This document shows positions 3,891 through 28,696 of a stretch of DNA of 33,152 nucleotides, in pieces. Positions within the stretch are counted from its first letter, which is position 1. Every line of letters begins with the position of its first letter. Both the position numbers and the translations under genes were made by a program. The stretch is from Clostridia bacterium (GTDB lineage Bacteria; Bacillota; Sulfobacillia; SLMV01). Under the pieces are notes generated by a model that searched no databases, was not told the DNA's origin, and worked only from the letters and a program-made list of their open reading frames with translations. The stretch is taken from positions 1 through 33,152 of the forward strand of contig PUNF01000021.1 in NCBI GenBank assembly GCA_003552525.1. Direction: 5' to 3'.

Positions 3891-3990
3891 CACGAGGGGG
3901 AGTAGCCAGGTCCATTGACCCGAAGTGGCCGTCAACACGGCGTAAGCCCGGTCCTTCGGCTCCCGGTTGGCGAGCAGGCGAGACCTTCGA
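3891..3990 (+). ncRNA. yybP-ykoY family (Mn2+) riboswitch aptamer
   Basis: GGGGGAGTAGC (L1-type), GTCAACACGGCG and GGCGAGACCTT core elements; P1 pairing CGAGGG (3893-3898) with CCTTCG (3984-3989). Confidence 0.83.
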
Positions 3991-4011
3991 GCATCAGGGG
4001 TCTCGTCTTTT
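3979..4011 (+). terminator. Riboswitch expression platform: intrinsic terminator overlapping the aptamer 3' strand
   Basis: CGAGACC (3979-3985) / GGTCTCG (3999-4005) followed by TCTTTT; 5' arm shares CC (3984-3985) with the P1 3' strand, so terminator and P1 are mutually exclusive. Confidence 0.75.
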
Positions 4012-4035
4012 GCTGCAGAAGGGGAGTGGGAATCG

Positions 4036-10664: not shown

Positions 10665-11312
10665 GTGTCACACACTGGCGATACACGAAGCATGGGCGCC
10701 ATTATCCTGGCGGGAGGACACGGTCGTCGCCTCGGCCGGCGCGACAAGGCCTTCGTACGGCTGAATGGCCGTCCCCTCATCGAGCACGTGCTGGCGCGGA
10801 TCGCGCCCAGCGTATCCGATATCATCATCGTATCGAATAATCCCGAGCGCTTCCGCAATTATGGGTTCCCCTCCGTGGCCGATCGCATCCCAAACGCGGG
10901 TCCGCTGGGCGGAATCCACACCGGGCTCTACCACGCATCGTGCGATAAGAACCTGGTCGTGGGATGCGATATGCCATTTCTGCAGCGTGCATTGCTCGAA
11001 TACTTGGATAGCCATATCGGCGAGCACCAAGTCCTCATCCCGCGAACGGGCAACCTGATCGAGCCCCTGTGCGCGGTTTACCGTCGCAGCTGCGCTCCGA
11101 TCATCGCCCAATTTCTGGCCTCGGGGGGACGGAAGATCGGCGATTTTCTCGGGCGGGTGGACTGCGCTTACGTGGATGAGGCCCGCCTCCGAACCCTTGA
11201 TCCCTCGCTGAAGTCGTTCTTCAATATCAACCACCACAGGGATCTGGACCGCGCGGAGGAGGTGCTGGCCATTGCCCAACAGAACGCGATCGGTCCGAAT
11301 TCGCAGGCTTGA
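10665..11312 (+). CDS. mobA: Molybdenum cofactor guanylyltransferase
   Basis: GAIILAGGHGRRLGRRDKAFVRLNGRPLIEHVL; PNAGPLGGIHTGL; VVGCDMPF; FFNINHHRDLDRAEEV; GTG start 10665 after GAGGAG. Confidence 0.92.
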   Translation: MSHTGDTRSMGAIILAGGHGRRLGRRDKAFVRLNGRPLIEHVLARIAPSVSDIIIVSNNPERFRNYGFPSVADRIPNAGPLGGIHTGLYHASCDKNLVVGCDMPFLQRALLEYLDSHIGEHQVLIPRTGNLIEPLCAVYRRSCAPIIAQFLASGGRKIGDFLGRVDCAYVDEARLRTLDPSLKSFFNINHHRDLDRAEEVLAIAQQNAIGPNSQA

Positions 11313-11994
11313 TGATGGCCGGGCTGAAACCACCGACGACCAGGTGCCAGCAGAGCATACCCTGCGGATCTACCTGGACGATACATTCATCATTGCGCTT
11401 TCGTGTTCCGACTCCGCACTGGAGGCGCTGGCCGTGGGCCACCTGCGAAGCGCCGACCATATTTCCCCGGACGCAACCGTCCGCGTTTTCCTCGACCCCG
11501 GAGAAGATACAACCGTAGCATCCGTTGTCCATACGGCCCAGGACACCCACGCAGCCGGATCACCTCCCGCACCCGTGCGCTCGACCACGCTGTACGCCGA
11601 TACGATCTACGAAAACATGAAGCGCTTGACGCGAGATTCCTCGCTATTTCACGCTACGGGAGCGGCGCATTGCACGGGGTTTTTCCGTGGCACGAAGGCC
11701 CACATCATCCATGACGACATCGCCCGGCACAACACGGTGGACCGCGTAATCGGCCAGGCTCATCTCGAACGAATTGACCTTTCCGCGGGCATGGTGGGCA
11801 CGACCGGGAGGGTATCCTCGGAGATCGCAGCCCGGTGCGCGGCGGCCGGCGTAACCGTACTGGTATCGCGGGGCGCACCCACGCACCTGGCCGTACAAAT
11901 CGCCCGTAGGGAGAACATGACGTTACTGGGATTTGCCCGCGGGCGCCGCTTCAACTGTTACACCCATTGCCATCGCATCCAGTCCCACCCCTGA
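11272..11994 (+). CDS. fdhD: FdhD-like formate dehydrogenase accessory protein (TTG start, overlaps mobA)
   Basis: EHTLRIYLDD, ALEALAVGHL, FHATGAAHCTGFF, HDDIARHNTVDRVIGQA, VSRGAPTHLAVQIARRENMTLLGFARGRRFNCYTH. Confidence 0.88.
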   Translation: MPNRTRSVRIRRLDDGRAETTDDQVPAEHTLRIYLDDTFIIALSCSDSALEALAVGHLRSADHISPDATVRVFLDPGEDTTVASVVHTAQDTHAAGSPPAPVRSTTLYADTIYENMKRLTRDSSLFHATGAAHCTGFFRGTKAHIIHDDIARHNTVDRVIGQAHLERIDLSAGMVGTTGRVSSEIAARCAAAGVTVLVSRGAPTHLAVQIARRENMTLLGFARGRRFNCYTHCHRIQSHP

Positions 11995-12112: not shown

Positions 12113-15100
12113 TCAGGAGGCGGCCGGTTCAACCCGCACGGCACAGACCTTGTACTCGGGAATCTTCGCCGCCGGATCCAGCTCCGGGTTGGTCAACACG
12201 TTGGCATTCGCCTCGACGAAATGGAAGGTCATGAAGATGGTGCCCTCCGGAACCTCCCGTGTCACCCGGGCCTCCGCCTCGACCTCACCCCGTCGCGAGC
12301 TGACGCGCATCCATGCTCCATCCGCTATGCCGTACCGGGTGGCATCCACCGGATGAATGCGCACGCGTTCGGCATCCTGCATCCGCTCAAGCCCCTCCAC
12401 GCGCCGTGTCATCGTGCCGGTATGGAAATGCCGCAGTGTACGACCGGTCGTCAGCACGAGCGGGTAATCCCCATCGGGTAGTTCGCGGCTGGGCTCGTAT
12501 TCAACCGCGCTGAAACGGGCCCGCCCGTCCTCGCGGGAGAACTGCTCACGATACAGGATCTCCGTACCGGAGTGCTCGGGGTCCGGACAGGGCCACGCAA
12601 GCCCTTCGTGTTCAATCCGCTCATAGTTGATGCCGGCCCAGCTCGGCACGAGCGATGCGATCTCCTCCATCACTTCCTCGGGGCCTTCCCAATCGAACCC
12701 AAAAGCCTCGAGCTTGCGCGCCAGGGCGCAGATGATATCTAGATCCGTACGGGCGTCACCGGGGGCATCCAGGGCCCGGCGCACCCTCTGCACGCGTCGC
12801 TCGGTATTCACAAAGGTACCGTCCTTCTCGGCGAATGAGGCGGCGGGCAATACCAGGTCTGCCAGCTCGGCGGTCTCGTTTAGGAAGATGTCCTGCACGA
12901 TGAGAAAGTCCAGCGACTCCAGGGCTCTCCGGGTACGGTTTACATCGGCCTCGGACATGAGCGGGTTTTCTCCCACGATGTACAGTGCACGGAGATCCTC
13001 CCGCTCCGCCGCCTTGATCATCTCGGTCATGGTAAGGCCCGGCGTCTCCGGCAGATCGGTGTCATAGGCCCGTTCGAAACCTGCCCGGTCACCCTCCAGG
13101 GACTGATAGCCCGGTAGGACGTTCGGCAGCACCGCCATGTCGCAGGCGCCCTGGACGTTATTTTGACCCCGCAGGGGATTTACGCCCGTGCCCGGCCGGC
13201 CCATGTTCCCGGTGAGCAATGCCAGGTTCGCAATGCTCATCACATTCTCGGTACCGTGGCTATGCTGGGTGATTCCCATCGCATAAAGGATGGCCGATGC
13301 ATCGGCAGCGGCAAAGGCGCGCGCCGCCGCGGCGATATCTTCCCGGGAAACGCCGGTAATCTCTTCTACCCGGTCGAGATCGACGCTTTCGAGTACGGGC
13401 ACGAAATCGTCGAACTCCGCGCATCGTTCGGCGATGAACGCGTGGTCGTGCAGATTCTCATCCATGATAACCTTCGCCATACCCGATAGCAGGGCTACAT
13501 CCGTTCCAGGACGATGGCGCAGCCACAGGTCCGCGTAGCGGCAAAGGTCGATCCACATCGGATTGGCCACGATGAGGGTTGTACCCGAGGCCACGGCCTG
13601 CTTGACCCGGTATCCCATGACCGGATGCGACTCGGTCGTATTGGACCCAATGGAAAGGATACAGTCGGCATTCAACACGTCATTGATCGAGTTGCTCATC
13701 GCGCCGCTGCCGAAGGCGGCATTCAGGCCACTAACCGAGGGCGCATGACAAAGGCGGGCGCAGTGATCGATATTGTTGGTGCCGAGGACGGCACGTGTGA
13801 GCTTCTGAAGCGCATACATCTCCTCCGTCGTGCACTTGGCGGAGCCGAACACCCCCACCTCGTCGCGGTCGGCGTATTCGCGCAGCTTGTCCGCGGCGAT
13901 AGATAGGGCCTCGTCCCAGGAGATCTCTTCGAAGCGGCCATCCCGGCGAATCAGCGGACGGGTGAGGCGGTCCGGATGCGTCACGAAATCAAATCCGAAG
14001 CGACCCTTGACGCACAGCTGGCCACGGTTGACCGGATGGTCCTCCTCGGCGCGGACATCGACGATCTCCCCCGCCCTGGTACCCAGTAGCAGACCACAAC
14101 CCACGCCACAATACGGGCATGTCGTGCGGGTGTACGCCGCGGCGACGGTGCGGGTGCGGGCGACGAGGGCACCCGTGGGGCAGGCGGTCACGCACAGGCC
14201 ACATGACTCACACATGGTTTCCTCGAGCCGCTGTGCGTCTCCGGTGAGCCCGACCCTGTCGGTAACTGCCAGGGCGGAAACCCCTACCACATCGGCGCAC
14301 ACCCGTACACACTGCCCGCAGGCGATGCAGCGGTTCGGGTCATGTTCAATGAAAGGATGATCGGTGCGGGTCGGGCGATAGTGCCGCACGATGGGCACGT
14401 CGCGATCGGAGAGTTCGTAGCACTCGGCCAGGTTCCTCAGCGTGCAGTCATCCGCCGCCTTACATCCACATTCGAGGCATCTTGAAGCCTCACACGAAGC
14501 ATCTTCGGCCTCCAACCCACGATTGACCTCGTCAAAATGCTTCTTCCGGGTGCCCGGGGCAATTTTGCGCTCGGATGCGCGCTCTCGGGAAGGGACGTCC
14601 TCGAATTCTTCGGGCACCAGTGTTTCGATATCCCCGCGACGAATATTGAATGTCATCGAGGGCTCGGGGGCTGTCTCGGGGGAAAGCCGTCGATCAATCG
14701 CATCGGCGGCATGGAGCCCATCACCGATGGCCTCCACCACGGTCGCGGCACCACGCACCGCGTCACCACCCGCGAAGACGTCGGGCAGTGCGGTTGCAAA
14801 GCTTCGTTCGGCCACCTCGATGCGACCGGAAGCGCCGATCGTCTCTTGCTCCTGTGGTTGCAGGCAGGACAGGTCGGGATTCTGCCCGATCGCCATGATC
14901 ACGGCGTCGACGTCGAGGTGAATCATGGCGCCTTCGATGGGCACGGGCCGGGGCCTACCACTGGCGTCGGGCTCTCCGAGCTCCATCTGCTGGGCCTCGA
15001 GTGTTTGCACCCGCTCCTCGCCGCGACAGGCGACAGGGGACGCGAGAAAGTAGAACGCGATGCCCTCATCCCGCGCGTCCTCGATTTCTTCCTCTTCGGC

Positions 15101-16183
15101 AGGCATTTCATCCTCCGTGCGACGATAGACGATCGAGACCTCTTCGGCGCCGGTACGAAGGGCTGTACGGGCCGCGTCGAAGGCGGTATTGCCTCCACCG
15201 ATGACCGCAACCTTTCGGCCAAGGGAGACATCCTCACCCGAGTTGACGCGGTCGAGGAAATCGAGACCGGACCATACGCCGGGTAAATCCGCCCCGGGGA
15301 AGTCCAGCATGATCCCCTTGGAAGCGCCCACTGACACAAAGACGGCGTCATGGTTCGCGCGCAGGGAGTCGAGCGTCAGGTCTTCGCCGAGGAGCTGGTT
15401 CTGATGCAACGCGACGCCGTGTTCCTTGATGTAGTTAATATCGTGGTCGAGGTCTTCCCGGGGGAGCCGATAGGCGGGAATGCCGTACCGAAGCATTCCA
15501 CCCGGTTCGGGGCCTGCATCGTACACCTGCACTTCGTATCCACGTCGGGCCAGGTGATAGGCCGCCGTCAATCCGGCCGGCCCCGCACCTACAACTGCCA
15601 CGCTCTTCCCGTTGGGCACCCCGGGCCTGGGGGGGAGAGGGTGCGACCGCTCAATGTCGGCGGCGTATCGCTTCAACGCCCGGATGGCCACCGGATCCTC
15701 CATGGCCTGGCGCCGGCATGCCTCCTCGCAGGGGTGGGTGCATACGCGGCCGCACACGGCGGGGAAAGGGTTGGTATCGCGGATAAGATCGATAGCGGCC
15801 CGGGGTTTTCCCTGGCGAATGAGCTGAATGTATCCCTGCACGTCGATGTCGGAGGGACAGTCCACCGAGCAAGGGGCCACGCAATCCGCGTAATGCTCGG
15901 TCAGGTAATCATGGATATATCCTTGGCGCGCCTTGCGCACCGCTTCCGTCTCCGTCTCGATTTCCATGCCATGCCACACGCGCGTATGGCATGCGGGTAG
16001 GACACCGACCTCTACCACCGACACCACACAAACCATGCAGTGGGTGGCCGGACCGACCCATTCGGAGTGGCACATGGTCGGGATCTCAACTCCAGCCTCC
16101 CTTGCTGCCTCCAGCACGGTGGTCCCTGACCGTACCACGACCTCCCGACCGTCGATTGTTACCGTAAGTGCTATGATGATCAT
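12113..16183 (-). CDS. Multidomain formate dehydrogenase: N-terminal 2Fe-2S + GltD/NfnB-like FAD/NAD(P)H domain + 2x[4Fe-4S] ferredoxin + FdhA molybdopterin domain (Cys active site)
   Basis: TMCHSEWVGPATHCMVC; GltD-like CGRVCTHPCEEACRR, GKSVAVVGAGPAGLTAAYHLARRGYEVQVYDAGPEPGGMLRYGIPAYRLP; CIACGQCVRVCADV/CESCGLCVTACPTGAL; TTCPYCGVGCGLLLG; NNIDHCARLCHAPSVSGL. Start ATG 16183 with RBS GGAGGAG. Confidence 0.92.
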   Translation of the reverse strand: MIIIALTVTIDGREVVVRSGTTVLEAAREAGVEIPTMCHSEWVGPATHCMVCVVSVVEVGVLPACHTRVWHGMEIETETEAVRKARQGYIHDYLTEHYADCVAPCSVDCPSDIDVQGYIQLIRQGKPRAAIDLIRDTNPFPAVCGRVCTHPCEEACRRQAMEDPVAIRALKRYAADIERSHPLPPRPGVPNGKSVAVVGAGPAGLTAAYHLARRGYEVQVYDAGPEPGGMLRYGIPAYRLPREDLDHDINYIKEHGVALHQNQLLGEDLTLDSLRANHDAVFVSVGASKGIMLDFPGADLPGVWSGLDFLDRVNSGEDVSLGRKVAVIGGGNTAFDAARTALRTGAEEVSIVYRRTEDEMPAEEEEIEDARDEGIAFYFLASPVACRGEERVQTLEAQQMELGEPDASGRPRPVPIEGAMIHLDVDAVIMAIGQNPDLSCLQPQEQETIGASGRIEVAERSFATALPDVFAGGDAVRGAATVVEAIGDGLHAADAIDRRLSPETAPEPSMTFNIRRGDIETLVPEEFEDVPSRERASERKIAPGTRKKHFDEVNRGLEAEDASCEASRCLECGCKAADDCTLRNLAECYELSDRDVPIVRHYRPTRTDHPFIEHDPNRCIACGQCVRVCADVVGVSALAVTDRVGLTGDAQRLEETMCESCGLCVTACPTGALVARTRTVAAAYTRTTCPYCGVGCGLLLGTRAGEIVDVRAEEDHPVNRGQLCVKGRFGFDFVTHPDRLTRPLIRRDGRFEEISWDEALSIAADKLREYADRDEVGVFGSAKCTTEEMYALQKLTRAVLGTNNIDHCARLCHAPSVSGLNAAFGSGAMSNSINDVLNADCILSIGSNTTESHPVMGYRVKQAVASGTTLIVANPMWIDLCRYADLWLRHRPGTDVALLSGMAKVIMDENLHDHAFIAERCAEFDDFVPVLESVDLDRVEEITGVSREDIAAAARAFAAADASAILYAMGITQHSHGTENVMSIANLALLTGNMGRPGTGVNPLRGQNNVQGACDMAVLPNVLPGYQSLEGDRAGFERAYDTDLPETPGLTMTEMIKAAEREDLRALYIVGENPLMSEADVNRTRRALESLDFLIVQDIFLNETAELADLVLPAASFAEKDGTFVNTERRVQRVRRALDAPGDARTDLDIICALARKLEAFGFDWEGPEEVMEEIASLVPSWAGINYERIEHEGLAWPCPDPEHSGTEILYREQFSREDGRARFSAVEYEPSRELPDGDYPLVLTTGRTLRHFHTGTMTRRVEGLERMQDAERVRIHPVDATRYGIADGAWMRVSSRRGEVEAEARVTREVPEGTIFMTFHFVEANANVLTNPELDPAAKIPEYKVCAVRVEPAAS

Positions 16184-16572
16184 TCTCCTCCTATCCCAAA
16201 CTGAGAATGTCTCGATGCGTTTTCCCTGTATATGCCTATAATACACGTCTCCCGAATGCAAGACGAGGAAGTGACCCGTCACCGAGTGCCCAGATGTGGC
16301 GTGCAACCGCCCAGGTTGTTCAGCACCGGGCTCCCGGCTAAGCGCGACGCATTCTGGGCGGTGGTTCGGGTTATGTCGAAAGGGCTCACACACGGCGGAT
16401 CCCACGTCTTGGTTCATGTGGAATCACCGCGAGGGACTGGAATTTGCCCCTTGTGAAAATGGTATCATAGGATCGAATGTGCAGCGTATCGGGTTGTCCA
16501 AGCGGGAAGTGCGTTGCCAATCGCGAATAGTAATGTGCTCGCCCATGCTCGTCTGCATGGTGTCGTGCTGAC

Positions 16573-17547
16573 ATGGGTTTTCCCGGCACCGCGAGATTTG
16601 ACATCGTGGGAACCGGTCGAGCATACGCCCACAGGGAGGGAAGGGATTTCTTGAAGATCTTTCCAAATGTCGGATCGGAACTGGCGTTTTGTCGCGATAT
16701 GTATCCCGGGTTCTCCGAGATTGCCGAGGACATAGAGGATATCGTTCGTGCGTTGGCCTCCGATGCAGCCCGACTGCAGGATGATGTGCCCATTCCGGAT
16801 GACACATCGTTCGATCAGGACGAAGCCGACGAGCGATTTCGGCTCGGCAAACCCCTTTGCCCCCGGGTTCGCGTGCCTCGAGCCGTCTGGGAGTCCCTCG
16901 TGACCACGGCTGCAAAGGGATTCTCTCGGATGTATCCCGACCAGGGCGAGGCGCTTACTTCCCTGGCGGAGGCCATGGTCCGAAGGGCCATGGACGACGG
17001 AGAGGAATCTTTCGCGCTGACCGACGAGAAGATCGATGCCCTGCTGTCGGTAACCCCCGAAAGTGACGCGATCGGCCCCGATGTGACGACCCTGTTCGTT
17101 ACACTGGCATTGGCCACCGCGTATCGCATGCATCTGCATCCTGACCTACACCGCCTGGATACCGCGAAATGGGGCGAGGCACACTGTCCCATCTGCGGCC
17201 AGGGTGCACACTACGGGATGTTGGACCCCGATGGTGTACGCCTGTTGGAATGCTGGTTGTGCGCCGCGCGTTGGTCTTTCCCGCGGCTTTGTTGTCCGCA
17301 TTGTGGCCTGAAGGATCACGAAGCGCTCGGGTATTTCACCATCGAATCCCTGGAGATGTGTCCCGTCTATTTCTGCAGCCACTGTTCGAAGTACATCAAG
17401 ATGTTCGATCTACGCGAGTACGAAACGGAAGCGTCCAACCTCATGCTGCACAATTTGGCTACTCTCTCCTGTGATCTGGTCGCCTCCAGCGAGGGATTCG
17501 CCAGTACCAGCAAACTCTGTTGGACATCGATGGAAGAAGAGCAATAG
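16573..17547 (+). CDS. fdhE: Formate dehydrogenase accessory protein FdhE-like (alternative TTG start at 16651 with a better RBS)
   Basis: CPICGQGAHYGMLDPDGVRLLECWLCAARWSFPRLCCPHCG; CSHCSKYIKMFDLREYE (rubredoxin-like CxxC knuckles). Confidence 0.85.
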   Translation: MGFPGTARFDIVGTGRAYAHREGRDFLKIFPNVGSELAFCRDMYPGFSEIAEDIEDIVRALASDAARLQDDVPIPDDTSFDQDEADERFRLGKPLCPRVRVPRAVWESLVTTAAKGFSRMYPDQGEALTSLAEAMVRRAMDDGEESFALTDEKIDALLSVTPESDAIGPDVTTLFVTLALATAYRMHLHPDLHRLDTAKWGEAHCPICGQGAHYGMLDPDGVRLLECWLCAARWSFPRLCCPHCGLKDHEALGYFTIESLEMCPVYFCSHCSKYIKMFDLREYETEASNLMLHNLATLSCDLVASSEGFASTSKLCWTSMEEEQ

Positions 17548-17569
17548 TCGACCTGGGGGAGGATCTTCA

Positions 17570-20563
17570 ATGAAGTTATCGCGACGCAGTTTCTTGAAGT
17601 TGATGGGTGGTGCAGCCGCAACCGCCACCCTCACCGGGCTCAACATGAATGTCACCGAAGCGAGGCCCCAAAGAATCAGGGTCCACTACGCGAAAGAGGT
17701 CCCCACCATCTGTCCCTTCTGTGCCGTGGGATGCGGTATCATCTGTCACGTGCGGGACGGACAAGTGGTGAATACCGAGGGTGACGCGGACCATCCCGTG
17801 AACGAGGGAACTCTGTGCAGCAAGGGCGCCGCACTATTCAACATGGCCTTCGTATACACGGACAGGGGCGAAATTAAACCCAATCCGCAGCGTATGCAGC
17901 ATGTCCTGTACCGGGCTCCCGGCGCCAAGGATTGGGAGGTCCGGGACTGGGACTGGGCACTGGACACGATTGCGCAGCGCATCCACGATACCCGGGAAGC
18001 CACCTTTGAAACCACGGACGAAGACGGTGTCACGGTGAACCGGACCACGGGGATCGCGCACCTGGGGAGCGCGTGTGTGACCAACGAGGAGAACTACCTC
18101 CTCCACAAGATGATGCGCGGATTCGGGCTGATCAATATTGACCATTGTGCCCGCCTCTGTCATTCGTCGACGGTCCCGGCGCTAATGAACAGCTTCGGCC
18201 GGGGTGCAATGACGAATCACTGGATCGATTATCAGCATTCGGATGTGCTGATGAACCTGGGTGGCAACACCGCCGAAAACCACCCGGTCTCGATGAAATG
18301 GATCGAAAAGGCGCGCGAACGCGGGGCGAAGCTCATCGTGGTGGACCCACGGTTTACCCGCACCGCGGCGGTGGCAGATCTTTACGCACCGATTCGCCCG
18401 GGCACCAACAATGCCTTCTTCGCCGGACTCATCAACTACGCCCTGGAAAACCAGCTGTACCACGGCGAATACGTACGCCATTACACCAATGCGACTTACC
18501 TGGTCGATCCCGAGTTCGGATTCGACGAGGGTCTCTTTTCCGGTGCGGAAACCCTGGACGATGGACAGGTCACGTATGATACGGATTCGTGGGCATACCA
18601 GGTGGACGACGAGGGGAATGTCCGAAAAGACGAGAGCCTGTTGGACCCCAACTGCGTCTACCAGCTGATGAAAGCCCACTTCTCCCGATACGACGTGGCA
18701 ACGGTCAGCGCCATCACGGGTTGCCCCGAGGACAAGTTCCGCGAGGTTGCCGATCTCTTCTGCAGCACGGGCAAAGCGGGGTTGGCGGGCAACGTGATGT
18801 ACGCCATGGGCATGACGCAGTTCACCAGCGCCGCCCAGGGCATTCGGGCCTGCGCAATTTTGCAGCTGCTCCTTGGGAACATGGGCATACCCGGTGGTGG
18901 GGTTAACGCCCAACGGGGAGAATCGAACGTGCAGGGTTCCACGGATATGGCGATGCTATACCACATAATCCCGGGTTACATGCCCGTGCCCACGGCATCC
19001 AAGCATCCCACGATGGACGCGTACCTGGAAGCCGAGGTACCGCCCAGCGGGTTCCTCGTCAATCGCCCCAAGCACCTGGTTAGCCTGATGAAAGCATACT
19101 GGGGAGATGCGGCGACCCCCGAGAATGATTTTGCGTTCGATTACCATCCAAAGATGGATGACCAGGATCGCTCGGAAATCGGCATCTTCGACGAGATGGC
19201 CAAGGGCAACATCAAGGGACTGGTTTCCTGGGCGCAGAATCCCGCCGTAGGTGGCTCCGCGGCGAAGCAAAAGCGCCAGGCGGCACGAAATCTCGATTGG
19301 CTGGTATCCGTCGACCTCTTCGCCAACGAAACCGCTACGTTCTGGAAAGAACCCGGTGTCAACCCCGAGGAAATCGACACGGAAGTGTTCCTCCTCCCGG
19401 CCGCGCTCGACTTCGAGCGAGACGGTTCGATCGCCAACAGTGGCCGCTGGCTGCAATGGCGATACGAGGCGATGAAGCCACCGGGAGATGCCAAACCGGA
19501 CCTTTGGATCGCCGATCGCCTCTTCCGGGCCGTTCGGGAGAAGTACCGGGAAGAACCCGGGGTCTTTGCCGATCCCATTCTCGAGATGGTGTGGGATTAT
19601 GGCGAAGACGCCCGCTCCGATCGGGTGGCCATGGAACTCAACGGCTACAATACCCGAACGGGGGCGCTTCTACAGGATTTCCGCTCCCTCGAAGACGACG
19701 GCGACACCGCCTGCGGGAATTGGCTGTACAGCGGTTATTACAATGATGAAGCCGACCCCCCGACCAAGCGCCGTACCCGCGAGAAAAACGGCATTGGTCT
19801 GCATCCGGACTGGTCGTACGCCTGGCCCCTGAATCGGCGAATCCTTTATAACCGATGCTCCGCGGACCCCAACGGGCGCCCCTGGAGTGACGAGAAACGC
19901 CTGCTCTGGGTCGAAAACGGACGCTGGACGGGGTACGACGTACCCGACTTCAACACCACCGTCCCGGCCCGTGAATCGGCCAATACCCCCTTCATCATGC
20001 TCGCCGAGCAGCAGGCCCTGCTGTTTAGTGCCGGTATGGTCGATGGCCCCTTCCCCGAGCACTACGAGCCGTGGGAGAGCCCGGTCCAGAACGTGATGTC
20101 CGATCGACACTTTAACCCGGTTAGCACGATCTGGTACCCCAACCTATACGCCGGCATCGCCAGCGATGAGTACCCATACATCGCGACGAGTTATCGCGTC
20201 AGCGAGCATTACCAAACGGGCATGATGACCCGGAACATGCCCTGGTTGAACGAGATCATGCCAGGTGTTTTCGTAGAGATCAGCCCCTCCCTGGCCCGAA
20301 AGATCGGCGTGGAGAACGGGGACATGGTCATCATCTCCAGCCCACGGGGCGAGTACGAAGCCGCCGCGTGCGTTACACCACGCGTAAAACCCTTCCGGGT
20401 GCACGGTGAAGAATACGAGATGGTCGGCATGTTATGGCACTGGGGATACGCCGGAATGTCTTCCGGCGGGATCGCCAACGACGTGACACCTTCAATCGGG
20501 GATGCCAACACGACCATACCAGAGTACAAGGCATTCCTCTGCAATATAAGGAAACGGGGGTAA
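17570..20563 (+). CDS. fdhA: Tat-exported formate dehydrogenase catalytic subunit, FdnG-like, Cys (not Sec) active site
   Basis: Twin-arginine signal SRRSFLKLMGGAAATA; TICPFCAVGCGIICHV; NIDHCARLCHSSTVPALMNSFGRGAMTNHWIDYQHSDVLMNLGGNTAENHPVSMKW; C-terminal molybdopterin dinucleotide-binding domain. Confidence 0.94.
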   Translation: MKLSRRSFLKLMGGAAATATLTGLNMNVTEARPQRIRVHYAKEVPTICPFCAVGCGIICHVRDGQVVNTEGDADHPVNEGTLCSKGAALFNMAFVYTDRGEIKPNPQRMQHVLYRAPGAKDWEVRDWDWALDTIAQRIHDTREATFETTDEDGVTVNRTTGIAHLGSACVTNEENYLLHKMMRGFGLINIDHCARLCHSSTVPALMNSFGRGAMTNHWIDYQHSDVLMNLGGNTAENHPVSMKWIEKARERGAKLIVVDPRFTRTAAVADLYAPIRPGTNNAFFAGLINYALENQLYHGEYVRHYTNATYLVDPEFGFDEGLFSGAETLDDGQVTYDTDSWAYQVDDEGNVRKDESLLDPNCVYQLMKAHFSRYDVATVSAITGCPEDKFREVADLFCSTGKAGLAGNVMYAMGMTQFTSAAQGIRACAILQLLLGNMGIPGGGVNAQRGESNVQGSTDMAMLYHIIPGYMPVPTASKHPTMDAYLEAEVPPSGFLVNRPKHLVSLMKAYWGDAATPENDFAFDYHPKMDDQDRSEIGIFDEMAKGNIKGLVSWAQNPAVGGSAAKQKRQAARNLDWLVSVDLFANETATFWKEPGVNPEEIDTEVFLLPAALDFERDGSIANSGRWLQWRYEAMKPPGDAKPDLWIADRLFRAVREKYREEPGVFADPILEMVWDYGEDARSDRVAMELNGYNTRTGALLQDFRSLEDDGDTACGNWLYSGYYNDEADPPTKRRTREKNGIGLHPDWSYAWPLNRRILYNRCSADPNGRPWSDEKRLLWVENGRWTGYDVPDFNTTVPARESANTPFIMLAEQQALLFSAGMVDGPFPEHYEPWESPVQNVMSDRHFNPVSTIWYPNLYAGIASDEYPYIATSYRVSEHYQTGMMTRNMPWLNEIMPGVFVEISPSLARKIGVENGDMVIISSPRGEYEAAACVTPRVKPFRVHGEEYEMVGMLWHWGYAGMSSGGIANDVTPSIGDANTTIPEYKAFLCNIRKRG

Positions 20564-20569
20564 CGCGAC

Positions 20570-21364
20570 ATGGCAAAGTCAATGCTGATCGACACGTCCA
20601 AGTGTACCGCCTGTCGTGCATGCCAGGTGGCTTGCAAGCAGTGGAACCAGCTACCCGCGGAAGAAACCAAGTTCTCGGGCACTTACGAGAATCCGCCCCG
20701 TTTTTCGCCTGTCACCTGGATGAAGGTCACGTTCCGGGAAGTGGAAGTGGGCGATGAAGTGCGCTGGTATTTTGGCAATCAACGCTGCATGCACTGTAGC
20801 GACGCAGCGTGCGCCCTGGTCTGCCCGGTCGGTGCCATCACCCATACGGAAACCGGTGCCGTCTCCATCGATCCCAAAAAGTGCATCGGGTGCAACTACT
20901 GTGTCGGAAACTGCACGTTCGACGTAATGGGATACAGCCGCCGCGATAACATGGCGGAAAAATGCACGTTCTGTGAAGACCGCGTCGCCAACGGGCTTAA
21001 GCCCGCATGTGCCAGCGCCTGCCCGACCGATGCGATCATCTTCGGCGAGCGCAGCGCACTGATCTCGCGGGCGCAGGCGCGGGCAAAGACATTGCGGGCA
21101 AACGGCGATCCGCGCGCCCGCGCCTACGGCATCGAGGAGCTCGACGGCACCGGAATGTTATTCGTCCTGCGGGATGTCCCGGCCAACCACGCCTTGCCAG
21201 CCGACCCCGTCGTACCGTTCGGTGCACGTGCCTGGAACTACGTGTTTAAGCCCCTGCGCGTCCTGATGGTACTCGGGGCCGCCTTCGGGCTCTGGCGAAA
21301 CTACCGTGGGACCGAAGACGTCAAACAAGGCAAATCACGCGGGAAGCAGAACGAATCCGCTTAG
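20570..21364 (+). CDS. fdhB: Formate dehydrogenase iron-sulfur subunit (four 4Fe-4S motifs, C-terminal TM segment)
   Basis: CTACRACQVACKQW, CMHCSDAACALVCPVGAI, CIGCNYCVGNCTFDV, CTFCEDRVANGLKPACASACPTDAI; C-terminal LRVLMVLGAAFGLW. Confidence 0.94.
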   Translation: MAKSMLIDTSKCTACRACQVACKQWNQLPAEETKFSGTYENPPRFSPVTWMKVTFREVEVGDEVRWYFGNQRCMHCSDAACALVCPVGAITHTETGAVSIDPKKCIGCNYCVGNCTFDVMGYSRRDNMAEKCTFCEDRVANGLKPACASACPTDAIIFGERSALISRAQARAKTLRANGDPRARAYGIEELDGTGMLFVLRDVPANHALPADPVVPFGARAWNYVFKPLRVLMVLGAAFGLWRNYRGTEDVKQGKSRGKQNESA

Positions 21365-21385
21365 CACGCCTTTGGAGGTGAGATC

Positions 21386-22720
21386 GTGGCTCTCAACGAC
21401 ATAAAAGAAGGAGAGGGTAAATCCTTTGTAGGAGGTACCCACGTTCCTCATTACAAAAGCTATACCGATAGTATCGCGATAGAGCGCATGGCCATCCCCG
21501 ATGAAGTCGTCGTACACCTCAGCCAGCACATCGGTGCTCCGTGTGAGCCCCTGGTCGCCGTGGGTGATACCGTAATGCTCGGCGAAAAGATCGCCGATGC
21601 CGATGCCTACATCACGGCGCCCTTGCATGCCCCAGTCAGCGGCGAGGTAACCGCGATCGAGGAGCGGCCGAACGCCGAGGGCGGCGAGACCATGAGTATC
21701 GTGATCGCGGCCAAGGGTGAACAGGACGCGTATCAGCCCTCCGTCGAACGCAACCCAGACGACATGTCCGCGGAGGAGCTCAAGGAAGCCATCCGCGATG
21801 CGGGGCTGGTCGGCATGGGTGGTGCCGCTTTCCCGACCTACGTAAACATCAATACCGATCAGCCGGTCGATACGCTGATCCTAAACGGGGCGGAATGCGA
21901 ACCATTTTTGACCTGCGACCACCGCCTGATGCTCGAGCGCGCCGACGAACTCATAAAGGGTGCGGAGATCCTAATGCGATGCATCGGCGCCAAGAAGACG
22001 TACATCGCGGTTGAGACGAACAAGCTCGACGCCATCGGGGTGCTGGACGAAAAACTCGGAGGACGGGACGACATGGAAGTGGTGCCCCTTGCGGTGAAGT
22101 ACCCACAGGGGTACAAGTCATACCTGATCAAGACCATCACGGGTCGGGATGTACCCCGTGGAGCGCGTTCCGCAGCCCTGGGCTGCATTGTCCGAAACGT
22201 CGGCACCACCTTTGCCGCGTACGAGGCCGTGGTGTATGGAAAGCCGCTCATAGAACGAATCATCAGCGTAACGGGGCCCACCGTCCCCGATCCCGGCAAT
22301 TACGTCGTGCGTGTCGGCACCAAGGCCGAGCACATCCTTTCCGAATGCGGCGTAGATCCGGACGAGCTCGACGGTGCCAAGGTCATATTTGGCGGACCGA
22401 TGACCGGGCTGGCCCAGGATAACCTGGAGGTACCGATCGTCAAGAGTACCACGGGCGTCCTGGTGCTTCCTCCCGAGATGGTACGCGAGGACATGGTGTA
22501 CAGCGATTGCGTCCGTTGTGGCCTCTGCGTGCAGCGCTGCCCGAACTGGCTCTATCCCAACGAACTGAGCATCCTCGCCGAACATGGAGTCTACGGGGAC
22601 TTGGAAGATTGGGATATATGGGATTGCATCGAGTGTGGTGTATGCGCCTACGTATGTCCGTCGAATCGTCCCATCGTCCACTTCATCAAGCGAGCCAAGC
22701 CGATCGTGGACGAACTCTAG
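21386..22720 (+). CDS. rnfC: RnfC-like electron transport complex subunit
   Basis: ITAPLHAPVSGEVTAIEERP; GLVGMGGAAFPTYVNINTDQPVDTLILNGAECEPFLTCDHRLM; DCVRCGLCVQRCPN and DCIECGVCAYVCPSNRPIVHFIKRAK; GTG start after GGAGGTG. Confidence 0.93.
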   Translation: MALNDIKEGEGKSFVGGTHVPHYKSYTDSIAIERMAIPDEVVVHLSQHIGAPCEPLVAVGDTVMLGEKIADADAYITAPLHAPVSGEVTAIEERPNAEGGETMSIVIAAKGEQDAYQPSVERNPDDMSAEELKEAIRDAGLVGMGGAAFPTYVNINTDQPVDTLILNGAECEPFLTCDHRLMLERADELIKGAEILMRCIGAKKTYIAVETNKLDAIGVLDEKLGGRDDMEVVPLAVKYPQGYKSYLIKTITGRDVPRGARSAALGCIVRNVGTTFAAYEAVVYGKPLIERIISVTGPTVPDPGNYVVRVGTKAEHILSECGVDPDELDGAKVIFGGPMTGLAQDNLEVPIVKSTTGVLVLPPEMVREDMVYSDCVRCGLCVQRCPNWLYPNELSILAEHGVYGDLEDWDIWDCIECGVCAYVCPSNRPIVHFIKRAKPIVDEL

Positions 22721-22765
22721 TGGCCTACGCGTACGAAGGAATACGCGAAAAGGAGGAGATTTTCG

Positions 22766-23731
22766 TTGGCTGACCGCTTAATCGCTACGCCGCCGCCACA
22801 CCTTAAAGCCGGTAACACTGTATCCGAAGCGATGCGCGATGTGATTATCGCGTTGATTCCCGTGTCGCTGGCGTCCATATACTTCTATCACTACTACGCC
22901 GCCTTCTTACTCGTGCTCTGCATGGGTACGGCGGCTATCACGGAGATCGTTGTACGTGCGGCCCTGAAGAAACGCCATACGCTGGGCGACCTGAGCGCGG
23001 TCCTAACCGGACTATTCGTCGCCCTCCTCATGTCACCGGGTTCACCATGGTGGACCGCCGTTTTGGCGACCATCCTCGCCGTCGGCGTGGCCAAGGAACT
23101 GATGGGTGGGCTGGGCTGGAATCTGTTCAACCCGGCCTTGTTCGGCAGCGTGGCCACCATCATCCTGGCGCCGTGGTTCGGATTCCTCAGCAGGGATCTT
23201 TCGCGACTCAATGTAAACTTCGGACCCATCGACGCAATCTCCCAGGCGACGCCGCGGGCGATGTTGATGCAGGGTGCATCGCTGCCGGACTACGGAACCA
23301 TGCTGCTTGGATTCCCCGGCGGCGCACTCTCGGAAACCTCGCCCCTTCTCGTCATCATCGGGGGTGCCTTCCTTCTCTACCGCGGCCACATCAACTGGCG
23401 CATCCCGGTCGCGATGATCGGCACGGTCGCGGTGTTATCGTTGCTCGCCGGAGGGGACGTCATCTACGAGATGCTGACCGGTGGGCTCATGCTCGGTGCG
23501 TTCTTCATGGCCACAGACTGGGTTACCAGTCCCATCAACAACAAGGGGAAATGGGTTTTCGGGATCGCCATCGGTGCACTGGTCGCCGTATTTCGTTTCG
23601 GCGTAGGTGCCACCGAGGGTGTGGCCTTCTCCATCCTCATTATGAACGCATTCGTGCCCCTGATCGAGCGCCTGACGAAGCATCCATCCTTCAGCGAGCC
23701 GGCGCCGAAGCCGGCTACCGAGGATGCGTAA
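22766..23731 (+). CDS. rnfD: RnfD-like electron transport complex subunit (TTG start)
   Basis: PPPHLKAGNTVSEAMRDVIIALIPVSLASIYFY; GDLSAVLTGLFVALLMSPGSPWWTAVLATILAVGVAKELMGGLGWNLFNPALFG; DAISQATPRAML; RBS GGAGGAG. Confidence 0.93.
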   Translation: MADRLIATPPPHLKAGNTVSEAMRDVIIALIPVSLASIYFYHYYAAFLLVLCMGTAAITEIVVRAALKKRHTLGDLSAVLTGLFVALLMSPGSPWWTAVLATILAVGVAKELMGGLGWNLFNPALFGSVATIILAPWFGFLSRDLSRLNVNFGPIDAISQATPRAMLMQGASLPDYGTMLLGFPGGALSETSPLLVIIGGAFLLYRGHINWRIPVAMIGTVAVLSLLAGGDVIYEMLTGGLMLGAFFMATDWVTSPINNKGKWVFGIAIGALVAVFRFGVGATEGVAFSILIMNAFVPLIERLTKHPSFSEPAPKPATEDA

Positions 23732-23753
23732 CGTCCTGGCATGACCGACACCC

Positions 23754-23781
23754 GGGCCTCCGCCGCTGGCGGCGGGGGCCC
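23754..23781 (+). terminator. Putative terminator hairpin after rnfD
   Basis: GGGCCTCCGCCG (23754-23765) / CGGCGGGGGCCC (23770-23781), 12-bp stem, 4-nt loop; no strong U-tract. Confidence 0.5.
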
Positions 23782-23991: not shown

Positions 23992-24177
23992 ATGTTTGGT
24001 CTGGGCCCTACGGAACTACTCATCATCCTCGGTGTTGTCCTCCTGATATTCGGGCCGAGCAAACTCCCGGAGGTCGGCCGCGCGATCGGCCGCGGGATTC
24101 GCGAGTTTCGCTCCGCCGCCAAGGATATCGAGGAGGCCGCACAGGCTCCCGACGAAGAAGAAAGCACGAAGGAGTGA
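23992..24177 (+). CDS. tatA: Sec-independent protein translocase TatA
   Basis: MFGLGPTELLIILGVVLLIFGPSKLPEVGRAIGRGIREFRSA; RBS GAAAGGAG. Confidence 0.95.
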   Translation: MFGLGPTELLIILGVVLLIFGPSKLPEVGRAIGRGIREFRSAAKDIEEAAQAPDEEESTKE

Positions 24178-24234: not shown

Positions 24235-24933
24235 GTGCAGGAAACCGGAATGTCTCTCGGCGAACACTTTGTCGAGCTTAGAAACCGAATCATCATATCC
24301 CTGGTCGCGATCTTCGCCGGCGCACTCGTCAGCTTCATTTTCTCCGAGCACCTGATCACCTACTTCACCCAGCACGCCGGAGAACTCGTGTTCCTCAGTC
24401 CACCGGAGGCCTTCATTACCTCCATAAAGCTATCCGTATTCGTCGGCTTCATGGCTGCCCTTCCGATCGTGTTGAGCCAGTTTTGGCTCTTCATATTACC
24501 GGCACTCACCCGGAGCGAGCGCATCACGCTGTATATCGTGATCCCCAGTTCCATCCTGCTCTTTTACGCGGGCATCGTCTTCTGCTTCTACCTTGTGCTC
24601 CCCATGGCCGTAAGGTTCCTCACGGAGTTCGGCTCCCCGGCCCTCGCACCCATGTTCAGCCTGCGAAACTACGTGGCCTTTATGTTACAGTTGCTGCTAC
24701 CCTTCGGCCTGGTCTTCGAGATTCCGCTGATGACCTCCATCCTGGTACGACTACGGCTGATATCCGCCCGCGCGCTAAGACGGTCGAGAAAGTATGCACT
24801 CGTGATCGTGTTCGTGGTGGCCGCCATACTCACACCACCCGACATCACCACGCAGCTCATGCTGGCGTTGCCCATCATCCTCCTGTACGAGGTCAGCATC
24901 CTACTGGCCTGGATCCTGCGTCCCCGCGGGTAG
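24235..24933 (+). CDS. tatC: Sec-independent protein translocase TatC
   Basis: MSLGEHFVELRNRIIISLVAI; FLSPPEAFITSIKLSVFVGFMAALPIVLSQFWLFILPALTRSER; ILTPPDITTQLMLALPIILLYEVSI. Confidence 0.95.
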   Translation: MQETGMSLGEHFVELRNRIIISLVAIFAGALVSFIFSEHLITYFTQHAGELVFLSPPEAFITSIKLSVFVGFMAALPIVLSQFWLFILPALTRSERITLYIVIPSSILLFYAGIVFCFYLVLPMAVRFLTEFGSPALAPMFSLRNYVAFMLQLLLPFGLVFEIPLMTSILVRLRLISARALRRSRKYALVIVFVVAAILTPPDITTQLMLALPIILLYEVSILLAWILRPRG

Positions 24934-25098: not shown

Positions 25099-25127
25099 TT
25101 GATGTCGGCGCCACCTTGTGCTAAGAT
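25099..25127 (+). promoter_or_regulatory. Predicted promoter for the paired membrane-protein genes
   Basis: TTGATG (25099-25104), 17-bp spacer, extended -10 TGC-TAAGAT (25122-25127). Confidence 0.55.
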
Positions 25128-25145
25128 TCACAAGGTGGCGCCGAC
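25104..25145. repeat. 17-bp perfect inverted repeat (8-nt spacer), candidate operator
   Basis: GTCGGCGCCACCTTGTG (25104-25120) - ctaagatt - CACAAGGTGGCGCCGAC (25129-25145). Confidence 0.95.
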
Positions 25146-25183
25146 GTTTAATTGTGGGTTCGTTCCGGGAATGGAGGCACCAA

Positions 25184-25717
25184 ATGCATCGCGCAAGAAT
25201 GGGTGGATGGGCCTTGTATATCGCTACCGGAATAGGATTTATTGCGTTAGCACTGCTCAGCGGTGATCCGCTGTGGATGCTCCCCATTGCACTCATTGCG
25301 GCCGGTTATTTCGCCGGCCTGATTAAGCAGATGCGAAATGCCGCACCCCCCGGTAACACGTCGAGAAACGAAATCTTGCTCACCATGGCCATTGCCATCG
25401 CCGCGGCGAGTGCAACGTGGTTTATCAACCACGAGCTCGGTTATGGGGCCTTGGTCGCGAGTGGGCTCATCGGCGTAATCGCGGGGGTCACACTGCCCCA
25501 TCACCTCGCTGGCGCCGCCTACGCCGCATCCTTCGTCGGTATGTCCGCAAACGCGGTGTTGCCGACCATGACCACGGCGTGGGTGGCCGGGGCGATAGCC
25601 GGAATCATCATCGTATCCACCGGACCGGTCTTCGGCGGAATCGGTGGGAAGGGCGGGACCGCGGCGGCCGCGGCCGTTCTCATTACCTCGGCCCTGATCT
25701 TTACGGTAGGAGCGTGA
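25184..25717 (+). CDS. Small polytopic membrane protein of unknown function
   Basis: 177-aa hydrophobic ORF; ATG 25184 with RBS GGAGG; motifs AAYAASFVGMS and GGIGGKGGTAAAAAVLI. Confidence 0.8.
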   Translation: MHRARMGGWALYIATGIGFIALALLSGDPLWMLPIALIAAGYFAGLIKQMRNAAPPGNTSRNEILLTMAIAIAAASATWFINHELGYGALVASGLIGVIAGVTLPHHLAGAAYAASFVGMSANAVLPTMTTAWVAGAIAGIIIVSTGPVFGGIGGKGGTAAAAAVLITSALIFTVGA

Positions 25718-25723
25718 TGAATC

Positions 25724-26164
25724 GTGTTCTCCATGGAATTGTTGGCCATTCTTCTGGCGGCGGTATTCGGCGGTGTCACCGCGCACTTCGTGAGCGTCCA
25801 GCTGCAACGGGGCGCGGTGCTCGGATCTGCGATCGTCGTGCTGTTTAGTGGCCTCGTGTTTCCGGCCATCTTTGGGCCACTCGGCACCCAGCTCGCCCTG
25901 GCCGCCACCACCGCCTCCTACGCCGGCATGATCTCCGAGCAAAAATGCGCGGGGCTTTTTCCGATGGTTGCCATTTCCGTGGTCGCGGGCGCGTTCTTCG
26001 CGATCTCCCACTCGGTATTTCCCGGGGTCGGGGGGCGCCTGGGCACCATCGCCGCCATCGCCTGCCTGAGCGTTATCGGTTACCGGTCATTGCTGGCCCA
26101 GGTACCGGTGGCCCGTACCCAGCAAGAACAGACCGAGAGCTACCGCCGGTTCCCACGGAAATAG
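25724..26164 (+). CDS. Small polytopic membrane protein of unknown function, homologous to the preceding gene product
   Basis: 146-aa hydrophobic ORF starting 6 nt after the upstream gene; TTASYAGMIS and PGVGGRLGTIAAIACLS align with upstream protein. Confidence 0.78.
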   Translation: MFSMELLAILLAAVFGGVTAHFVSVQLQRGAVLGSAIVVLFSGLVFPAIFGPLGTQLALAATTASYAGMISEQKCAGLFPMVAISVVAGAFFAISHSVFPGVGGRLGTIAAIACLSVIGYRSLLAQVPVARTQQEQTESYRRFPRK

Positions 26165-26246: not shown

Positions 26247-27329
26247 TCAAGGCAACTCGCGAATCATCGATTTCTCTACGTAACGTGACATGAACAGGTA
26301 CAGCAGGGCACTGTAGCCGCGGACGGTAAAGCGCAATACGTCCCCAACCGCCGGGCGCTCTTCTGCCGATTCAACGTCGAGGATCAGGTGATCCGAGGAG
26401 GCGCCCAGGATGTGGATACCGGGATCCTCGGGCTGGAGACCGTCGGGTTCCACATCCGCCCGCCCGACCCCGACGATGGCCCGGAGACGATCCCCGTGAT
26501 CCTCGAATTGCGGCGTCTGCCCGAAGGCGTCCTGGCCGGTCTCACCGAGCGGCATCGAAGGTTTCACCTTCACTTCCAGCACCTCTGCACATAACGTAAA
26601 GACATCCTGGTGCATTCCCGCGATCGGACGTCGATACATGCTCTCATTTCCCAAGAAAATGATCTCCCCAAGGCGCAGGTTGTTTACTTCTCCGGGCACC
26701 TCCCCGGCTTCCAGCATGCTCCAGTTGGCGGAATTCCCTCCCGATACCATCGGTATGCGACGGCCAAGGACACCCTGCAGCACCGAGCGCGCGCGGAGCA
26801 AACGCGCCATGTTCTCCTCGTCGGGAATGACGCCACCGTAACAAGCAAGGTTGGTCCCGACGCCCACGACGTCCAGGTGGGATAGGTTTTGCAGGGCATT
26901 GCCCATATCCTCGATCTCATCGGGCCACACGCCCTCGCGGAGGTCACCCACATCCACCATGATGACGACCCCGTGGCGCCCACCAAGATCTCCGGCGGCG
27001 CCATCGAGGGCCTTGAGGGTCTCGACTTCACTATTGAGGCTCAATTGGGCCAGTTCCACCGTCTCGCGGGCCCGGGAGGGCATGGGTAGCCGCAACAGCC
27101 CGCGCTGGACCCCGGGAGCATGTTGCGCGAGGCTTCTCAGGTTCGCCAGCCGCGAATCCGCCATGCTGCGAAAGCCGGCGGCGTGAAGGCACCGCACCAG
27201 CTCCGGATGTGCAGAGACCACCTTCGTAACCGCCGTCGGCTCTATCTCCCGACGCCTGCACTCGCGCAGGATGTAGCGCGCATTGGTGTCCAGGCGCTTC
27301 AGGTTGACCTCTACCGCTGGATACTGCAA
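26247..27329 (-). CDS. orr: Ornithine racemase (alanine racemase N-terminal fold, PLP-dependent)
   Basis: PAVEVNLKRLDTNARYILRECRRREIEPTAVTKVVSAHPELVRCLHAAGFRSMADSRLANL; GGNSANWSMLEAGEVPGEVNNLRLGEIIFLG; operon context. Confidence 0.88.
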   Translation of the reverse strand: MQYPAVEVNLKRLDTNARYILRECRRREIEPTAVTKVVSAHPELVRCLHAAGFRSMADSRLANLRSLAQHAPGVQRGLLRLPMPSRARETVELAQLSLNSEVETLKALDGAAGDLGGRHGVVIMVDVGDLREGVWPDEIEDMGNALQNLSHLDVVGVGTNLACYGGVIPDEENMARLLRARSVLQGVLGRRIPMVSGGNSANWSMLEAGEVPGEVNNLRLGEIIFLGNESMYRRPIAGMHQDVFTLCAEVLEVKVKPSMPLGETGQDAFGQTPQFEDHGDRLRAIVGVGRADVEPDGLQPEDPGIHILGASSDHLILDVESAEERPAVGDVLRFTVRGYSALLYLFMSRYVEKSMIRELP

Positions 27330-28696
27330 AGCGACTCCTCCTCCATTCCGAGGGATGCCATTAGTAGCCGGGCCGCAGCATCCCCGTTGACAAGGGACAA
27401 CATCCCCGCGGCCGCCATGATGTAATCGTGATCCACCATGACCTCGGCCGATCGGGGATAGAGGGCCGCCGGCACCGGGCGTGATAATGCTTCCCGCAGG
27501 ATCTCGAGACCCCCCGGGAGGCGCGTCAGGGCGCCACCGGTTCCGATCACCAGGCGAACCTCGGTGAGATCCTTGCCCTCCGCCACCGTCATCCTTCCTG
27601 ATGGTCCGAACAGATGCCGGGTACGTCCGGCGTGACGCCCCAATGCAACACTCACGGCCTCGCGGGTGAGCCTTTGCACCAGGGCTCGTTCCTTCTCCGT
27701 CTCGGGCACCGGACCAAGTGTCTCCAGCACCGCGGCCACAGAGAAACCCAGATCATCCTCGAGCGCTTCCTCGCCAATCCCCGAGACCAAATTGAACACG
27801 TTGACGTAAACGCCCAGGTCACCCTCTACCGTGCGCTTGGCGAAGGGTTCGGGGGCGACCAGGATGCGAGCGATCTCCTCGGACCCCTCTGTAACAGAGT
27901 GCACGTCGGTCGTCGCGCCCCCGACATCGATCGCGACCAGGTCCCCGACGCGCTCGTGAAAGCAACGCGCCGCCTGCATCACGGCACCGGGGACCGGCAT
28001 GATCTCCCCATCGATCAGTTCCCGGACCCGCCCCATCCCGGGCGCACGCACGATGTGTTCTTCGAATATGCGCTGAATGGCCCGACGGGTAGGCTCGATC
28101 TCCAGCTGGTCAATACGGGGATACACGTTGTCGACGACATGAACGCGGTTTCCGAGGATCTCCTCGACTTCTTTGCGGGCTGCGATATTGCCCGCGTAAA
28201 CGACCGGAGCCTCGAGCCCGAGTGAAGCCAGCTTCTGTGCATTGGCAATAACCGTTTCCCGTTCTCCGTAATCCACGCCCCCGGCAAGGAGCAGGATGCT
28301 GGGATTGATCTCTGCGACGGTGCGAAGATCCGCATCACTCATTTGCCCTGCAGTGACCTGCCGCACGACGGCCCCGGCCCCCAGGGCCGCCTCGTTGGCC
28401 GCTTTCACGGTCATGTCGTAGACCAGGCCGTGCACTGTCATCTGCAGTCCACCGGCCGCAGAGGAACACGCCAGAAAACGCTCCCATTCGACGGAGCGCA
28501 CCCCGAGGGTCTGCGCCAGTTCGTCCAGGGCCTGGCGAAGGCCCACCACCACGTCACCTTCCTCGACCGTGGTGGGGCCCGCCCCCTGCCCCAGGAGGTG
28601 GGCCGCCCCATCCTTTACCCCGGCAAAGGCGCTCACCACGGTGGTGGTACTCCCGATCTCGGCCACCAGGACCTCTACCGTGCGGGTGTCACTCAC
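27311..28696 (-). CDS. GlmL/MutL-family ATPase-like protein, probable aminomutase reactivating factor
   Basis: VLVAEIGSTTTVVSAFA; CSSAAGGLQMTVHGLVYDMTVKAANEAALGAGAVV; LLLAGGVDYGERETVIANAQKLA; VAIDVGGATTDVHSV. Confidence 0.88.
   Translation of the reverse strand: MSDTRTVEVLVAEIGSTTTVVSAFAGVKDGAAHLLGQGAGPTTVEEGDVVVGLRQALDELAQTLGVRSVEWERFLACSSAAGGLQMTVHGLVYDMTVKAANEAALGAGAVVRQVTAGQMSDADLRTVAEINPSILLLAGGVDYGERETVIANAQKLASLGLEAPVVYAGNIAARKEVEEILGNRVHVVDNVYPRIDQLEIEPTRRAIQRIFEEHIVRAPGMGRVRELIDGEIMPVPGAVMQAARCFHERVGDLVAIDVGGATTDVHSVTEGSEEIARILVAPEPFAKRTVEGDLGVYVNVFNLVSGIGEEALEDDLGFSVAAVLETLGPVPETEKERALVQRLTREAVSVALGRHAGRTRHLFGPSGRMTVAEGKDLTEVRLVIGTGGALTRLPGGLEILREALSRPVPAALYPRSAEVMVDHDYIMAAAGMLSLVNGDAAARLLMASLGMEEESLCSIQR

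Follow-up and report, generated by a model that had tools for sequence, protein, structure and literature searches.

The 33,152-nt stretch analysed here (the window) carries a gene set in which an exported formate dehydrogenase (FDH) is followed by rnfC and rnfD, two subunit genes of the Rnf complex. It is one contig of a 2.3 Mb metagenome-assembled genome (MAG), which is 92% complete in 224 contigs. The five genes all lie on the plus strand, with intergenic gaps of 22, 6, 21 and 45 nt in order. Coordinates and domain scans thus agree with the initial annotation, made from the letters alone, which had described fdhE, an fdhA with a twin-arginine translocation (Tat) signal, fdhB, rnfC and rnfD as co-directional with short gaps (6-45 nt). 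The features of the gene set are:

16573-17547, plus strand: fdhE, FDH maturation protein (accessory); TIGR01562 E 8e-12 (below cut-off), PF24859 E 6e-5
17570-20563, plus strand: fdhA, exported molybdopterin/tungstopterin FDH catalytic subunit; TIGR01553 1124 bits
20570-21364, plus strand: fdhB, four-cluster Fe-S subunit; 16 Cys in four groups, C-terminal transmembrane segment
21386-22720, plus strand: rnfC, standalone subfamily, with FMN/NADH domain; TIGR01945 489 bits, PF01512, PF13375
22766-23731, plus strand: rnfD, standalone subfamily, polytopic membrane flavoprotein; TIGR01946 248 bits, PF03116 302 bits
23754-23766/23769-23781, strandless: inverted repeat at the end of the gene set, 13 nt, 92%; possible 3' end

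FdhA scored above the TIGR01553 family cut-off of 814 bits and has a twin-arginine N-terminus (MKLSRRSFLKLMGG), for which the Tat model PF10518 gave 21.2 bits, slightly below its cut-off of 22.7. At the selenocysteine (Sec) site, the enzyme has a cysteine in DHCARLCHS (codon TGT, 18158-18160), whereas most homologous fdhA loci have TGA (Sec) at that codon; the nearest solved relative is a Sec-containing FDH alpha subunit (9qm0_A). FdhB has exactly 16 cysteines, which fall into four [4Fe-4S]-type groups, and the 19-mer of highest hydrophobicity lies at its C-terminus (residues 224-242; membrane segment at about 21239-21295, YVFKPLRVLMVLGAAFGLW), which bears out the earlier reading of four Fe-S motifs and a C-terminal anchor. 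It aligns with E. coli FdnH (1kqf_B), C-terminal segment included, and reached 200.6 bits against the beta-subunit equivalog TIGR01582, below the cut-off of 334.7. The C-terminal motif [FY]xPxR..GLW/ALW is common to FDH- and hydrogenase-linked Fe-S subunits. The FdhE assignment is weak, as the TIGR01562 match shows; an fdhE-like gene lies 5' of fdhA in many homologous loci, and tatC is also found near several of them.

Both Rnf proteins passed their NCBIfam cut-offs (246 bits for RnfC, 207 bits for RnfD). Their start codons are GTG and TTG, preceded by GGAGGTGA and GGAGGAGA, respectively. RnfC contains two [4Fe-4S] motifs of the form CxxCxxCxxxC (Cys 375/378/381/385 and 414/417/420/424), both of which are aligned in the match to 9eri_C (E 1e-106). 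For RnfD, alignments to 7zc6_D and 9eri_D placed the FMN threonine at Thr162 (codon 23249-23251) and the riboflavin ligands at N122 and D251. The protein matches PF03116 only, with no PF00175 fusion, and its AlphaFold2 model (pLDDT 75) matches 9eri_D with a TM-score of 0.82. The closest solved relatives of both proteins are the Rnf complexes of Acetobacterium woodii and Clostridium tetanomorphum.

Domain scans found neither rnfG, rnfE, rnfA or rnfB nor a cytochrome b gene at the locus, in line with the initial annotation, which had seen no cytochrome b gamma subunit after fdhB and no rnfG/E/A/B after rnfD. Another contig of the same genome (C208) carries, at 12505-18572, a complete rnfCDGEAB operon with apbE, and the rnfCD pair of the locus is therefore an extra copy. 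As the C208 operon carries its own rnfC and rnfD, the locus pair is not a displaced part of the genome's Rnf, and the case considered beforehand, an operon elsewhere that lacks these two genes, did not arise. The only apbE of the MAG, coding for the flavin transferase needed for FMN attachment to RnfD, adjoins the canonical operon. The check for an fdnI homologue was likewise clear: within the 92% complete MAG, neither a PF01292 cytochrome b nor an NrfD subunit (PF03916) was found, which speaks against such a partner encoded elsewhere; futalosine-pathway PF02621 and the formate transporter FocA (PF01226) were not found either, and UbiA appeared only as a contig-edge fragment below cut-off.

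Conservation was followed in two surveys, one of 101 genomes around the window and one of GTDB genome contigs. Nine of the 101 genomes, source included, carry a high-scoring RnfD of this type (at least 311 bits, compared with at most 226 in the rest). Seven further genomes of these nine have fdhA, fdhB, rnfC and rnfD together, while in the ninth, rnfD-rnfC adjoins a PhsA-like molybdoenzyme with a TorD chaperone. The GTDB scan, biased toward this RnfD type by a query built from it, yielded 79 loci: four ordinary Rnf operons and 75 loci without rnfG/E/A/B. These 75 come from Bacillota and Actinomycetota and from a few MAGs assigned to other groups; among the carriers, Anoxynatronum buryatiense and Natronincola peptidivorans are isolates. 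An exported partner could be assigned in 58 of them: FDH in 46, a PhsA-like enzyme in ten and a [NiFe] hydrogenase in two. The others, showing an Fe-S subunit alone (8) or no partner (9), lie mostly at contig ends. The median spacing of rnfC and rnfD is 60 bp (between match ends), and both genes share a strand in all 70 loci showing both. The synteny that the initial annotation had proposed to look for is thus widely conserved in relatives, and its recurrence in many genomes rules out a chance adjacency of fdh and rnfCD. We refer to adjacent rnfC and rnfD without rnfGEAB, beside an exported metalloenzyme and an Fe-S subunit, as a standalone RnfCD module; the window locus fits this description.

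The order of the genes varies while the set is kept, with rnfD-rnfC in L044 and L097 and rnfC-rnfD-fdhA-fdhB in L084, L094, L099, L100, L102, L104 and L105. Partners are swapped as well: the RnfC of L078 is 72% identical to that of the window, yet it is paired with a PhsA-like enzyme and a TorD chaperone. In L069 (7594-13692) and L073 (7542-13691), judging from a domain scan of L073, rnfC-rnfD precedes genes for an Fe-S subunit whose N-terminus is Tat-like, for the small and large subunits of a [NiFe] hydrogenase and for proteins of maturation type. The inside end can change, too. In Natronincola peptidivorans DSM 18979 (L109:5875-8958), RnfC is the C-terminal part of a protein of about 1,000 residues, the N-terminal part of which is an [FeFe] hydrogenase (PF02906, PF02256). 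RnfC is also C-terminal in a protein of about 1,000 residues in L106 (4553-7591), the domain scan having covered the L109 protein, and both fusions stand between a PhsA-like exported molybdoenzyme set and rnfD. The Fe-S subunits of variant loci retain the C-terminal membrane segment. Two further FDH arrangements were also seen. FdhA and FdhB form one open frame with no intervening stop in L037 (3-3494; = L048), which is either a real fusion or a MAG error. In L083 (4864-9282), a full fdhA-fdhB-rnfC-rnfD set is followed by a second tandem set that comprises fdhA, rnfD and a short match to fdhB but lacks an rnfC of its own.

This variation bears on the reading that FdhAB acts alone with another, unnamed carrier, rnfCD being merely co-regulated. 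The closest solved FdhA relatives are Sec-containing alpha subunits of the Desulfovibrio FdhAB type, which has no gamma subunit and pairs with cytochrome c, and the search of the source genome did not cover multihaem cytochromes. However, FdhB retains an FdnH-like C-terminal anchor, and the rnfCD linkage survives both order changes and partner swaps, leaving this reading highly improbable.

Phylogeny separates the two kinds of Rnf proteins. The RnfD tree splits 26 operon copies from 79 standalone copies at 100/100, and in the RnfC tree, the operon copies fall on one side of a branch with an SH-aLRT of 99; both trees leave out NQR and Rnf from more distant phyla and do not fix the root or origin. 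All 79 standalone and all 26 canonical RnfD proteins have the FMN threonine and both riboflavin ligands, whereas E111, invariant in all 79 standalone copies, was seen in none of the 26 from operons.

In A. woodii Rnf, electrons pass from RnfG-FMN on the outside to RnfD-FMN, RnfD-riboflavin, the [4Fe-4S] clusters of RnfC, FMN and NAD+ (PMC11889175; review PMC12174285). The gene set of the window encodes the second half of this path together with an exported Fe-S enzyme at the position of RnfG, and since solved Rnf structures show the same half-path and its checked ligands are kept, an RnfCD half-path is plausible. On these comparative and structural grounds, FdhA, FdhB, RnfC and RnfD very probably assemble in the membrane into a complex that, with neither quinone nor haem, couples formate/CO2 conversion outside the cytoplasm to NAD+/NADH conversion in the cytosol. 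FdhAB would stand where RnfG does in Rnf and, from the outside, give electrons to a half-Rnf wire or accept them from it, with the membrane-proximal cluster of FdhB meeting the outward-facing FMN of RnfD. From there, electrons would flow via riboflavin, the RnfC clusters and FMN to NAD+. They would cross the membrane singly, so that formate oxidation would build a membrane potential as a redox half-loop, while in reverse, the potential would aid NADH in reducing CO2 to formate outside. Overall, the complex may act as a reversible, electrogenic, quinone-free formate:NAD+ oxidoreductase.

With standard potentials of -432 mV for formate and -320 mV for NADH, each electron passing from formate to NAD+ releases about 112 mV and carries one charge across the membrane. 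The reaction would therefore be near equilibrium with a normal membrane potential, and either direction is feasible. We prefer the disposal of NADH as external formate, because the source organism is probably an ornithine-degrading anaerobe, FocA was undetected and no clear quinone genes were seen. Genes for ornithine aminomutase, a racemase and a MutL-like protein lie nearby and point to fermentation of amino acids; external formate would be a plausible sink for its electrons.

Several observations weigh against this formate:NAD+ complex. Two other genomes of the same genus lack the module; negatives from a 92% complete MAG of 224 contigs are provisional, and for menaquinone synthesis by the men pathway, UbiA was the one enzyme probed. 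UbiA-family proteins exceed the cut-off in 30 of 50 carriers, which also speaks against a restriction of the module to quinone-free bacteria. Moreover, 48 of the 50 carriers have RnfA/E over the family cut-off. This last count, like the complete rnf operon of the source genome, would be expected if FdhAB-RnfCD docked on RnfA/B/E/G of a separate operon as a hybrid Rnf, with formate feeding the ion pump or ferredoxin plus NAD+. However, an rnfC and an rnfD are already part of the separate operon, and the standalone RnfC and RnfD form distinct subfamilies. One carrier MAG (G121, L077) has no PF02508 match, although MAGs are incomplete, and two other carriers have only short contig-edge or partial matches. 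The co-occurrence may also merely reflect how common Rnf is in these anaerobes, together with a shared need for ApbE. We therefore regard a hybrid Rnf as quite improbable.

Published Rnf/NQR models disagree on ion movement by RnfD (PMC11889175, PMC12174285). In a variant of the proposed complex, FdhAB-RnfCD would itself be a Na+ pump through RnfD, beyond serving as an electron wire. For the Rnf of C. tetanomorphum and for NQR, Na+ was proposed to pass through RnfD/NqrB (PMC12174285), and several named carriers come from soda-lake or saline settings. In contrast, work on A. woodii places pumping at RnfA/E and judges RnfD an electron carrier only (PMC11889175), and RnfA/E are absent at the locus. 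This variant of the proposed complex is unlikely, and a natural RnfCD-only complex would directly test ion movement by RnfD alone.

The initial annotation had proposed that RnfD and RnfC replace the cytochrome b and connect formate with NAD+. Synteny, ligands and the structural half-path support the replacement, but the arrangement is not formate-specific, given its PhsA-like and [NiFe] partners. The natural variation fits the mechanism, as the outside enzyme is swapped, the Fe-S anchor is kept and L109 has an RnfC-[FeFe] hydrogenase fusion at the inside end. It suggests that the RnfC-RnfD pair serves as an adaptor of general use, joined in other bacteria to different outside enzymes. We consider it reasonably probable that, at least in Bacillota and Actinomycetota, RnfC and RnfD form an independent, exchangeable, quinone- and haem-free transmembrane electron wire between the NAD(H) pool (or an [FeFe] hydrogenase via the RnfC fusion) and FDH, PhsA-like molybdoenzymes or [NiFe] hydrogenase. 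This would be a new respiratory architecture, with potential made or spent by a bare redox half-loop. Rnf would then have been dissected by nature into a separable RnfCD half, and anaerobes with neither quinones nor cytochromes could tie membrane potential to an exchange that has NADH on one side and, outside the cell, formate, H2 or the substrate of a molybdoenzyme on the other. Reverse electron transport and the transfer of formate between species would thereby gain a concrete route.

Compared with canonical Rnf (A. woodii 9ERI-9ERL, C. tetanomorphum 7ZC6), RnfC and RnfD are homologous over their full length, keep the cofactor ligands and share the predicted half-path from outside FMN to inside NAD+. 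Unlike it, the locus has no RnfA, B, E or G, hence neither a ferredoxin site nor an RnfA/E pump, its C and D subunits are separate subfamilies, and its outside partner is an enzyme instead of RnfG. With FDH-N (FdnGHI, E. coli 1KQF), it shares an exported alpha subunit of the same NCBIfam family and a four-cluster beta subunit with C-terminal anchor, but it lacks the FdnI cytochrome b gamma subunit, its FdhB stays below the TIGR01582 cut-off, and the predicted acceptor is NAD+ instead of menaquinone. Periplasmic FdhAB of Desulfovibrio provides the closest solved alpha subunits (9qm0_A); it is soluble, whereas FdhB of the locus is C-terminally anchored and linked to rnfCD. The nearest published concept, built from different parts, is that of the Nqr/Rnf-like two-subunit flavinylated systems (PMC8238504, PMC11334425), in which one NqrB/RnfD-type subunit was likewise proposed between NAD(P)H and extracytosolic proteins. 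These are defined by a fused NqrF-type PF00175, the lack of the RnfD threonine and an FMN_bind partner (PMC8238504); the locus, in contrast, has a separate RnfC, keeps Thr162 and has a metalloenzyme partner and no FMN_bind gene. The MetVF-RnfC2 methylene-THF reductase of A. woodii (PMC8578096) also uses an RnfC paralogue as NADH module outside Rnf, but is soluble and without RnfD. Candidatus Contubernalis has an exported Tat FDH with a membrane-anchored beta subunit and no electron partner named (PMC10608574), and for Candidatus Syntrophonatronum, only RnfC, D and G were reported (PMC6295475); either could be an instance of the present module. The open-access literature yielded no account of an RnfCD-only complex paired with an exported enzyme (subscription papers were outside the search), in line with the initial annotation, to which this arrangement was not known as a described system.

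Three further genes of the window relate to FDH export and maturation:

23992-24177, plus strand: tatA, export machinery for a Tat substrate; by sequence (translation)
24235-24933, plus strand: tatC; PF00902 210 bits, TIGR00945 over cut-off
11272-11994, plus strand: fdhD, FDH sulfurtransferase, start uncertain; PF02634 172 bits

The inverted repeat 3' of rnfD had been described as a 12-bp hairpin followed by tatA/tatC; repeat and order were found, but it measured 13 nt. It has no U-tract and is absent from the terminator scan list, and a role as terminator is only possible. Promoter and terminator scans barely exceed shuffled sequence (5 vs 3.2 and 10 vs 6.1) and carry no information here. Two open reading frames of 199 and 146 aa follow tatC (25118-26164, plus strand); they are hydrophobic by eye and have no Pfam or NCBIfam match. 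Divergent from fdhE, a 1434-residue cytosolic-type FDH fusion is encoded at 12116-16417 (minus strand), combining a 2Fe-2S domain, a pyridine-nucleotide-disulphide oxidoreductase domain and a molybdopterin FDH. It also has Cys instead of Sec (DHCARLCHA), and fdhD probably serves both FDHs of the window. The regions 26247-32715 (minus strand) and 3967-5136 (plus strand) hold likely ornithine degradation genes (aminomutase parts, MutL-like, racemase-fold and PLP enzyme) and the beta subunit of a Na+-transporting decarboxylase (PF03977).

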